Positions 2,362 through 5,368 of a stretch of DNA of 64,000 nt are shown piece after piece (positions within the stretch are counted from its first letter, which is position 1; each line of letters opens with the position of its first letter). This stretch comes from Candidatus Sulfotelmatobacter sp. (lineage in GTDB: Bacteria > Vulcanimicrobiota > Vulcanimicrobiia > Vulcanimicrobiales > Vulcanimicrobiaceae): assembly GCA_035504415.1 (NCBI GenBank), contig DATJRY010000011.1:248001-312000 (forward strand), written 5' to 3'. The position numbers and the translations under genes were made by a program. The notes beneath the pieces were generated by a model, which did no database searches, was not told the origin of the DNA, and saw only the letters and a program-made list of their open reading frames with translations.

Positions 2362-4344
2362 TCACGCCGCGGACGGACGCAGCCGGCGGTAGATCGCGAT
2401 CGCGATCGCCCCGACGATGACGCCGATGACCGCCCCGTTGACCAGCCGCAGCGCCGAGATCGCCAGGTGGGTGTGGAGGTGCGAGAAGGTGTCGACCACG
2501 TCGCTCAGCCCTAGCCCGATCGCGAGCGCGAACAGCCAGCCCCAACGAGCGCGGTCGACCGGCATCAGCGCCGGCGCCAGCATCAGCGCCGGGAAGCCGA
2601 CCACGAACTCCTTGAAGCGCGGGCGGACCTGCAGCCAGGTGGTCAAGTGCGCGCGCAGCGCCAGCTCGAAGTTCGAGGGCGCGATGTCGCTCTGGTTGCC
2701 GCTGCGCACCAGCACCAGATAGCCCACGCCCAGGATCACGACGCCCAGCAGCAGCTGCAGCACCGTCACCGGCGCGCTGGCGAACCGGTCGGGCGGGACG
2801 CGCGCGCCCCAGCGCGGGGTGAACAGGTAGAGCGCGAGCGCCAACAGGGCGGGCAGGATCAGCACCAGCCGCACGCCGCTGAAGCGGTCGATCTCGAGCA
2901 TCGTCAGCGGCGTGGACAGCAAGCCGATCACCACCAGCACGCCGCCCAGCGTGACGGCGGTCGCCAGCGCGACGACCCGGATGCCGTCCAAGATCGCGGC
3001 GCCGGTGGTCGGCGCGCGCGGCGACCGCAGCGCCGGCGCGATCGCGGCGAAGCCGGCCAGCGGGAAGACGATCGCGCCGATCAGCGCCAACAGCTTGCGG
3101 GCGGCCATGTCGTGGTGGAGCGCGAAGCCGGCCAGCACCAGCACCAGGTCGAGCACCACGGCGACGACCAGCCAACGCATCCCGCCGATGCCGAACTCGC
3201 CGAGCAGCAGCAACACGATCGCGGGGACCGCCAGCGAGCAGAGCGCGATCTCCCACCACACGCTCACGAAGCGGTCGAACGGCGTCGCGCCGCCGATCCG
3301 CAGCCCCGAGGCGCGGATGCCGGCCGCGATCTGGCGGACCAGCTCGACGTTGGTCGCCTCGATCGAGCGCCCGTCCCACTCGTGCGCGAACGGCCGCAGG
3401 TAGACGACCCGCACGTTGCGCTCGCGCACCCCGAGCAGATAGCGCTGCACGATCTCTTGCGGCTGGAGCTTGTCTTGCTCGAGCTTGCTGATCGCTTGGA
3501 CGCGAACGGTCTGGCTCGGCAAGAGCCGCGCCAGACCTTCGTTCCCGGCCTGGTCTTGCTTGGGATCGTAGGTCTCGATGGTGCCGAAGCTGACCTTGAG
3601 CCGCTGCATCTCGGCCGCGGTCGCCGGCAGCTGGTCGGGATATCCGAGCACCTGATTGCGCAGCCCGAAGAAGATGACGGTCGAGACCCGGTTGCCGCGC
3701 ACCGCCCCGGCCAGCAGCCCGTCGATCTGCGGGGGACCGAAGCGCTCGTCGTTCTGCAGCCGCGGGATCAGCTTGAGGCCGAGCTCGTGCGCCAGCGCGA
3801 CGCGATCGGCCGGCAACCCCAGGCCGACCGTCTGGAAGTAATCGCTCTGCGTGCGGATCGCGAACACGGCCGGCAGCGCGCGCGGCGCCGTCAGCCGCCG
3901 CACCGCGTGCGCCGAGAACTTGAGCGGGAGCTGGAACGCGTAGCGCGCCGCGGTCGGACCGTCGTACGCGATCAGGTACATCTCGTCGGCCCGCAGCTGG
4001 TGAGCGCGGTTCAGGCGGCTCAAGGTCGGGTCGGTCAGTCCCGTCAGCCGGGCCTGGTCGAGCAGCGTCGTCCCGGCGTAGGCGGCGGCCGTCGACGAGG
4101 TGGAGACCGCGCCGCCCAGCTCCTCCTGGACCGAGAGCGAGGTCAGCCCGGCGCGCCGCAGCGCGATCAGGAACGCCCGCTCGTCGTAGGCGTACGACCG
4201 CGCCAGCGCCTGGAAGTCCTGATCGTCCATCGCGATCTCGACGCGGTTCGCGCGATGTTCGTGCCGTTCGCGGCGTACCGCGACAAAAAGGCAGGCGAGC
4301 AAACCGAGGGCCAGCAGCCCCAGCAACAGGCGGCGATACGTCAC
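2362..4344 (-). CDS. DUF5693 family polytopic membrane protein
   Basis: The frame is open from 4374, but the GTG at 4344 is chosen because the earlier TTG falls inside a terminator-like hairpin. The protein (660 aa) starts with a basic stretch and a membrane helix, continues with a soluble region of about 330 residues resembling the DUF5693 extracytoplasmic part, and ends with eight or more hydrophobic helices. DUF5693 proteins commonly neighbour csaB and have no established function; a role in cell-envelope polysaccharide or S-layer attachment is inferred from that linkage. There is no clear Shine-Dalgarno before either start, and the leader RNA upstream may control translation or transcription. 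Confidence 0.82.
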   Translation of the reverse strand: MTYRRLLLGLLALGLLACLFVAVRRERHEHRANRVEIAMDDQDFQALARSYAYDERAFLIALRRAGLTSLSVQEELGGAVSTSSTAAAYAGTTLLDQARLTGLTDPTLSRLNRAHQLRADEMYLIAYDGPTAARYAFQLPLKFSAHAVRRLTAPRALPAVFAIRTQSDYFQTVGLGLPADRVALAHELGLKLIPRLQNDERFGPPQIDGLLAGAVRGNRVSTVIFFGLRNQVLGYPDQLPATAAEMQRLKVSFGTIETYDPKQDQAGNEGLARLLPSQTVRVQAISKLEQDKLQPQEIVQRYLLGVRERNVRVVYLRPFAHEWDGRSIEATNVELVRQIAAGIRASGLRIGGATPFDRFVSVWWEIALCSLAVPAIVLLLLGEFGIGGMRWLVVAVVLDLVLVLAGFALHHDMAARKLLALIGAIVFPLAGFAAIAPALRSPRAPTTGAAILDGIRVVALATAVTLGGVLVVIGLLSTPLTMLEIDRFSGVRLVLILPALLALALYLFTPRWGARVPPDRFASAPVTVLQLLLGVVILGVGYLVLVRSGNQSDIAPSNFELALRAHLTTWLQVRPRFKEFVVGFPALMLAPALMPVDRARWGWLFALAIGLGLSDVVDTFSHLHTHLAISALRLVNGAVIGVIVGAIAIAIYRRLRPSAA

Positions 4345-4364
4345 GGGCCCGCGTTTTCGGCCCG

Positions 4365-4399
4365 AAAACAACAAGACCCGCCGTGGGCGGGCCTTGTTG
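4365..4399 (-). terminator. Intrinsic terminator-like hairpin upstream of the DUF5693-csaB operon
   Basis: Arms CAACAAG-A-CCCGCC (4369-4382) and GGCGGG-C-CTTGTTG (4386-4399) pair over 14 positions with one mismatch and a GTG loop. Read on the minus strand the hairpin runs into TTTT at 4365-4368, so it should end minus-strand transcription just before the DUF5693 start. Confidence 0.65.
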
Positions 4400-4570
4400 C
4401 CGTCGCGTAGCAGGTTGCCCTACTACCGGGTGTGGGCGACGTTGATAGCGCCTTGCGGCGCGCCCACCCGCGACGGTGGGGAGTGAATTGGAAACGCCGA
4501 CCGGGAATCCTCCGGCCGCTGCGTCGTCCCGAGTTAAAACTGCTTTACTAGGTCGCGGTACGGTAAAGCC
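4400..4570 (-). ncRNA. Structured leader or small RNA of unknown family
   Basis: This 170-bp stretch between echA-like and DUF5693 genes holds no convincing ORF but folds well. CCGTCGCG (4400-4407) pairs with CGCGACGG (4469-4476), enclosing TGGGC/GCCCA (4433-4437 with 4462-4466) and a GCGCC-TTGC-GGCGC stem-loop (4448-4461). A further stem pairs 4542-4548 with 4563-4569. It ends in the terminator at 4365-4399, so the minus strand is the likely sense. It could be a riboswitch controlling csaB or a stand-alone RNA; I looked for 6S, SRP, T-box, SAM and c-di-AMP signatures and found none. Confidence 0.45.
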
Positions 4571-4582
4571 GTGTGCGCCGCG

Positions 4583-5368
4583 TCAGGTGCGCCATACCGG
4601 ATCGCGCTTGCCGACGAACGCGCCCATGCCTTCTTGCGCGTCCTCCGCCAGCGCGTTCATCGACATGACTTCCTTCGCGTACGCGTACGCTTTGGGCTGG
4701 TCGAGATCGATCTGCGCGTAGAACGCCGCTTTACCCAGCCCGACGACGAAACTGGCGGCGTCGGCGATGCGCGCGGCGAGCGCGCGCGTCGCGGCGCTCA
4801 GCTGTTCGGGCGGCACGACGCGGTTGACCAATCCCCACTCGGCGGCGGTCTGGGCGTCGATCGGCTCACCGGTCAGCAGCATCTCCATCGCGCGCTTGCG
4901 CCCGATCGCGCGCGTCAGCGCGACCATCGGCGTGGTGCAGAAGAGCCCGATCTTCACCCCGGGCGTCGCGAAGCGCGCTTCGCTCGACGCGACGGCGAGG
5001 TCGCAGGTCGCGACCAGCTGACAGCCGGCTGCGGTCGCGATCCCGGCGATCTCGGCGATCACCGGCTGCGGGATCGCCTGGACCGTCTGCATCAGCTTGA
5101 CGCACACGTCGAAGGTGCGGCGATAGTCGTCGACGCTGCGCGCCAACATCTCGCGCAGATCGTGACCGGAGCTGAAGGCCGGACCGACGCCGCGCAGCAC
5201 GACGACGCGCACGCCGCGATCGGCGCCGAGCGCCTCGAACGCGGCCGTCAGCTCGAGCATCACCTCGAGCGAAAGCGCGTTCCGCTTCTCCGGACGATTG
5301 AGCGTCAGCGTCGCGATCCCGTCGTCGAGATCGAGCAAGAGGTGCTGATACAACGTCGTCGCGAGCAT
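4583..5368 (-). CDS. Enoyl-CoA hydratase/isomerase family protein
   Basis: A 261-residue crotonase-fold protein starting at the ATG at 5368. It contains LTLNRPEKRNAL (about 22-33), the first oxyanion-hole region FSSGHDLREM and the second, IAEIAGIATAAGCQLVATCDLA. The family hydrates or isomerises acyl-CoA thioesters in the cytoplasm. The two catalytic Glu of classic hydratases are not both present: the second region has C/Q where GGG-E is common, so the exact reaction is open. The sequence most resembles the ECHDC3-like branch. It stands alone, with the structured RNA downstream. Confidence 0.85.
   Translation of the reverse strand: MLATTLYQHLLLDLDDGIATLTLNRPEKRNALSLEVMLELTAAFEALGADRGVRVVVLRGVGPAFSSGHDLREMLARSVDDYRRTFDVCVKLMQTVQAIPQPVIAEIAGIATAAGCQLVATCDLAVASSEARFATPGVKIGLFCTTPMVALTRAIGRKRAMEMLLTGEPIDAQTAAEWGLVNRVVPPEQLSAATRALAARIADAASFVVGLGKAAFYAQIDLDQPKAYAYAKEVMSMNALAEDAQEGMGAFVGKRDPVWRT

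Follow-up and report, generated by a model that had tools for sequence, protein, structure and literature searches.

The window analysed here, a stretch of 64,000 nucleotides from Candidatus Sulfotelmatobacter sp., carries on its minus strand a gene of the enoyl-CoA hydratase/isomerase family (ECH; 4583-5368; PF00378, E 3e-62), followed by a structured RNA of about 120 nt and by the genes for a DUF5693 membrane protein (2362-4344; PF18949, E 4.1e-125) and a csaB-type polysaccharide pyruvyl transferase (1245-2360; PF04230, E 5.1e-35). Read 5' to 3', the RNA is built from a variable loop, an invariant core, a covarying hairpin and a 3' stem, the last of which acts in most relatives as an intrinsic terminator. 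A comparison with these relatives indicated that DUF5693 most likely starts at the GTG at 4344, 20 nt past the U-run, and the TTG at 4374, with which the longest open reading frame begins, was set aside on the same basis. The interval from the terminator to the start of DUF5693 contains a perfect 17-bp inverted repeat (GTTTTCGGCCCGAAAAC, 4353-4369), which overlaps the U-run. The motif GCGAA is found 0-40 nt past the terminator in 53% of 64 main loci (defined below), as compared to 4% in shuffled sequences and none of the nine orphan loci; part of this signal may stem from the start region of DUF5693.

The distribution of the RNA is narrow. Of 41 genomes searched with BLASTN, 17 contain the RNA, including the one from which the window comes. 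A covariance model (R1), built from 15 of the 18 loci extracted (alignment A2), was applied with a cut-off of E <= 0.001; 71 of the 99 family genomes contain a match, and the numbers are 72 of 117 at class level and 73 of 149 at phylum level. Two of these matches lie beyond the family, one in G027, where locus L060 shows the core, and one in G138 (33.8 bits, model match only). When the genomes of 84,980 species were scanned with the core pattern, 92 stretches matched and 80 were listed as loci, among which R1 confirms only metagenome-assembled genomes (MAGs) labelled Eremiobacterota, WPS-2 or 'bacterium'. The core-pattern matches in Actinobacteria, Chloroflexi, Acidobacteria and Sphingomonas had no R1 match below E 0.1 anywhere in the record and were discarded as chance, and viral contigs, plasmids and phages yielded 0 RNA matches each. 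The carriers are Eremiobacterota/Vulcanimicrobiota, and the RNA occurs almost nowhere outside the one family. Two loci among the weakest R1 matches (L061 and L062) appeared by eye to consist of a terminator only and were dropped, and the degenerate L059 was left out of the counts. In total 74 different loci were retained, comprising 65 main loci (beside ECH and/or DUF5693) and 9 orphans; as the species are related, these counts do not represent independent events.

The original prediction had described nested stems at 4400-4407/4469-4476, 4433-4437/4462-4466 and 4448-4461, ending in a terminator with a U-run near the gene start; it had held that the usual riboswitch classes do not fit and had named covariation in homologues as a check. 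All of these stems exist at those positions. As folded, from P1 to the U-run, the RNA spans 4365-4480 (minus strand, z -6.2), and the covariance model matches here over the full length of the model (1-108 of 108). The minus strand of 4362-4480 folds at -73.3 kcal/mol, which was equalled by none of 200 shuffles (z -6.2), whereas the plus strand stands out less (z -2.4 for 4365-4500 and -1.1 for 4365-4570). The general layout of the main loci is GTGGGC or GTGGGT, 11 to 48 variable nucleotides, CGTCGCCCACACCCG, hairpin B, GCGACG and, without a gap, the terminator stem.

Covariation is clear in two helices of this structure, hairpin B and the terminator stem. Hairpin B (4407-4426; arms GTAGTAGG and CCTGCTAC, loop GCAA) shows changes on both sides in 5 of its 8 pairs while being 100% paired in 33 distinct rows, a covariation score that was reached by 0 of 500 shuffles. 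At least seven contiguous pairs are present in 72 of the 74 loci; the other two have one mismatch and an N, respectively. The intrinsic terminator (4365-4399; z -6.6) was also correctly anticipated and is read on the minus strand, with a covarying 14-bp stem (4369-4382/4386-4399), a loop at 4383-4385 and a U-run at 4365-4368. A simple terminator scan of 3800-5200 listed no terminator: it requires five T, and the first eight bases of this tail contain only four. The stem abuts the core, and core and terminator are not mutually exclusive. A T run of at least four is found in 37 of the 46 main loci with a short hairpin B, as against runs of at most three in 14 of the 19 with a long one; termination in the latter may therefore be weak. 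In one clade (L070, L100, L116, L138 and relatives) hairpin B is enlarged and carries a conserved CCCGACAAAAAGGG-like tip, and the U-run is eroded.

The core is almost devoid of variation, with about 40 invariant nucleotides. The 5' strand of P2 (4462-4467) reads GTGGGC in 62 and GTGGGT in 3 of the 65 main loci, and is hence kept in all of them despite a following loop of 11 to 48 nt, where GTGGG would be expected by chance in about 9% of shuffled 60-nt stretches. Its counterpart GCCCAC (4432-4437) is invariant in alignment A3, which comprises 34 of the 65 main loci, all with 20-nt hairpins; the inner stem of the original prediction is part of this 6-bp pairing. Helix A would be formed by CGTCGC (4436-4441) and GCGACG (4401-4406). 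The latter strand is invariant in the 65 main loci; the former is present in all of these and in 6 of the 9 orphans, whereas two of the remaining three orphans still pair via G-U and one has an A. Between helix A and hairpin B lies the C-rich stretch CCACACCCG (4427-4435), identical in 34 of 34 rows. P2 (GTGGGC:GCCCAC) and helix A, which are deduced from the complementarity of their strands and from the fact that GTGGG is kept between variable flanks, appear to form jointly an H-type pseudoknot, in which the two helices overlap by two bases and helix A is cut to 4 bp (CGTC) when P2 is complete. Five of the six P2 pairs and all four pseudoknot pairs never vary, and covariation thus cannot prove either helix. 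The small hairpin P2a within the P2 loop (4448-4461; sequence and fold) has, by eye, counterparts in several loci of the same genus and is not evident outside it. Of the proposed nesting, the inner pairing was borne out by conservation, but conservation of the outer P1, whose 8 bp in the window join 4469-4476 to 4400-4407, does not extend beyond the genus: the longest such helix in the main loci averages 4.58 bp versus 4.35 bp in shuffles, and P1 was not retained as part of the conserved fold.

Taken together, a new structured RNA family, confined to one family of uncultured bacteria, is well supported. In line with the predicted misfit to the usual riboswitch classes, Rfam 15 gave no family match in the region at gathering score and none up to E 10 in 4300-4620. 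Literature searches on small RNAs in Eremiobacterota or riboswitches in WPS-2 returned nothing relevant by title, a search on csaB and riboswitches only unrelated titles among the matches listed, and a search on DUF5693 no hits. Within the scope of Rfam 15 and these literature searches, the RNA is undescribed, and it adds a new RNA family to a phylum with very few studied regulators.

Upstream of the RNA, there is a probable promoter region (4487-4548). It comprises an imperfect dyad (4533-4548), GAGGATTC (4505-4512) and TTTCCAAT (4487-4494), which recur by eye in the same order and with similar spacing in loci of the same genus. The dyad is close to GTTAAG-N4-CTTAAC and lies at a near-constant distance from AAGGAT/AAGGAAT in several of these loci; it is possibly an activator site. 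A promoter further upstream would lengthen the 5' end by a few nucleotides beyond 4480. In an analysis of 73 of the 74 loci, promoter-like sites upstream of the RNA exceeded shuffles overall (Stouffer z 3.8 for 65 related loci). Many of the best sites are located 22-40 nt before GTGGG and are clear in only some loci; the best site of the window itself scores z 0.2. The orphans L053 and L056 have a TAGAAT box just upstream.

The genomic context of the main loci is well conserved on both sides. ECH lies upstream, no more than 160 nt from the core, in 60 of the 65, at 331 nt in one and about 2.3 kb away in two, and was not found in two. DUF5693 begins no further than about 160 nt downstream of the core in 59 of the 65, and at 843 and 1955 nt in two others; in the four without a match the sequence ends within 200 nt (three loci) or after 689 nt. 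In L054, L078, L084 and L089 ECH is absent or 2.3 kb off and the RNA is still with DUF5693, and in L071 a hydrolase gene was inserted ahead of DUF5693 at, by eye, the same short distance past the terminator. In L083, a main copy, the RNA is directly followed by a convergent gene that resembles a homoserine acetyltransferase by eye. The nine orphan copies among the 74 loci (L051, L052, L053, two in L055, L056, L057, L058 and L060) are situated away from DUF5693 at unrelated places in 8 genomes, mostly ahead of convergent genes and in several cases between them, and their flanks vary from a TonB receptor, catalase and HTH protein to lipoproteins and a resolvase. An automatic search did not recover the GTGGG strand in 5 of the 9, including L056, which has ATGGGC; the GTGGGG of L060 lies 65 nt upstream and was not counted as P2. 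Most P2-less orphans keep the same inner terminator strand, as judged by eye.

Downstream of both L052 and L058 lies a CarboxypepD_reg lipoprotein region, and by eye the two also have an HTH gene in common; L055 contains two similar cassettes with a resolvase in between. The orphan copies may travel with mobile cassettes; tRNA-linked integration was dismissed, as a scan of nine loci of this type revealed no tRNA. Among the genomes of the family that do not carry the RNA, DUF5693 is present in 21 of the 24 searched (out of 28; five outgroups were also searched), and nine genomes have ECH and DUF5693 as close neighbours with no RNA (G012, G019, G066, G067, G068, G071, G072, G075 and G092). On a DUF5693 tree of 75 rows, six changes of the RNA label are needed, which fits an early gain followed by several losses.

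What follows directly from the computation is that the hairpin and the terminator stem are conserved, that the core is invariant and where the RNA lies; these findings can be read in several ways. Our tentative preference, held with somewhat less than even confidence, is that the RNA is a family-specific structured 5' leader of the DUF5693-csaB unit, in which read-through is set by binding to the core. Transcription would start at a putative promoter between ECH and the RNA, and the transcript would fold while being made, with GTGGGC pairing to GCCCAC, CGTC to GACG in the presumed pseudoknot, and hairpin B closing. In most genera transcription would usually end at the terminator just ahead of DUF5693 and yield a stable RNA of about 120 nt, and DUF5693 and csaB would be made from the fraction that reads through. 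That fraction may be set by a protein or a small molecule, the candidate ligand, binding the invariant core. The leader reading is favoured by the fold and its covariation, by the same-direction position of DUF5693 shortly past the terminator, by the loci where the RNA stays with DUF5693 when ECH is absent or distant, and by the spacing in L071. Moreover, the 20 nt between the U-run and the GTG in the window leave too little space for a separate DUF5693 promoter. A motif that is commonly found upstream of coding regions is conventionally taken as cis-regulatory, according to PMC2864571. However, ECH is a neighbour of the RNA about as consistently as DUF5693 is, and plain synteny could thus explain the position; the orphans, L083, the RNA-free genomes that keep ECH next to DUF5693 and the compatibility of core and terminator also count against a leader.

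The possible switch cuts both ways. Pairing between GTGGG and the terminator's inner 5' strand is possible in 32 of 32 RNA terminators, versus 19% of 103 controls, where the controls were other stem-plus-T sites in the same loci (putative terminators) and the RNA terminators share ancestry. Yet this antiterminator, the sole candidate found for mutually exclusive pairings that toggle the terminator, costs a median of 18 kcal/mol against the P2 state (64 of 65 main loci), which makes a simple thermodynamic switch unlikely, and the same strand is kept, by eye, in most orphans that lack P2. A protein-dependent or kinetic switch may still be compatible with such a cost. The proposal of a new pyruvylation regulator or a small RNA stood as far as a conserved structured RNA directly 5' of DUF5693-csaB is concerned: neither of the two outcomes named beforehand as refuting it, a match to a known RNA family or missing covariation in homologues, was observed. 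The orphans, L083 and the failure to find a plausible switch bring its small-RNA option close in likelihood to its regulator option.

Only slightly less likely than a leader, and able to hold at the same time, is a separate small RNA gene, equipped with a promoter and a terminator of its own, which would act in trans, for example by pairing via the invariant C-rich strand or by protein binding, and would merely have been inherited between ECH and DUF5693. The orphan copies, the TAGAAT boxes of two of them and the L083 copy are consistent with this, as are the self-contained terminator, the C-rich stretch and the loss of the RNA with unchanged neighbours. The 59 main copies directly ahead of DUF5693, where a promoter for DUF5693 alone would find little space or none, argue against it, as do the differing contexts of the orphans, the GTGGGC strand being missing from at least five of the nine, and the long-hairpin loci without a proper U-run. 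Searches for Hfq were positive in 6 of 9 carriers and in 3 of 5 non-carriers; that it was not found in the other three carriers speaks against an sRNA, and a link between Hfq and the RNA was rejected, the occurrence of Hfq not being tied to carriage. Within the phylum Hfq is patchy (9 of 14 genomes searched, G000 included). We consider it quite unlikely that the RNA is an elaborate terminator or insulator that separates ECH from DUF5693-csaB, with the core stabilising the 3' end. The gapless junction of core and stem and the orphans between convergent genes would suit that role, but the invariant nucleotides and the far-off conserved GTGGG exceed the needs of a terminator, and in one clade the U-run is eroded while core and stem persist. 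A leader-peptide attenuator is hardly credible: in the window a short frame begins, by eye, with a GTG at P2 and stops within the core, but the P2-to-core distances occur in all three frames, which excludes a conserved open frame from this GTG, and no base of the core varies, unlike coding sequence.

A more far-reaching version of the leader reading, which we regard as rather doubtful, is a pseudoknotted riboswitch-like sensor that would tune csaB-type wall pyruvylation via read-through into DUF5693-csaB, with the terminated product also acting in trans. Pyruvylation of wall polymers anchors SLH-domain proteins, and to our knowledge no RNA control of this modification is known so far. If the RNA does control DUF5693-csaB, it would be the first such case known to us.

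With respect to known systems, 6S RNA (RF00013) is likewise small, structured and present in the phylum, but RF00013 is not matched here and 6S RNA sits at other places in relatives, and this identity was rejected. The preQ1-II type riboswitch adopts an H-type pseudoknot whose two stems have a hairpin lying between their 3' strands, a fold that the present RNA probably shares; the present RNA has no Rfam match up to E 10, differs in sequence and has a terminator instead of a ribosome-site platform. It departs from the usual trans-acting sRNAs of bacteria in its unusually invariant pseudoknot-like core, its fixed place ahead of one operon and in not being tied to Hfq, but shares with them a length of about 120 nt, a possible promoter of its own, an intrinsic terminator and a conserved C-rich stretch. 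From terminator-controlled riboswitch and attenuator leaders it differs in that no credible mutually exclusive pairing was found, in its orphan copies and in having no ligand assigned, whereas it has in common with them the invariant structured core, the intrinsic terminator and the position just ahead of one conserved operon.
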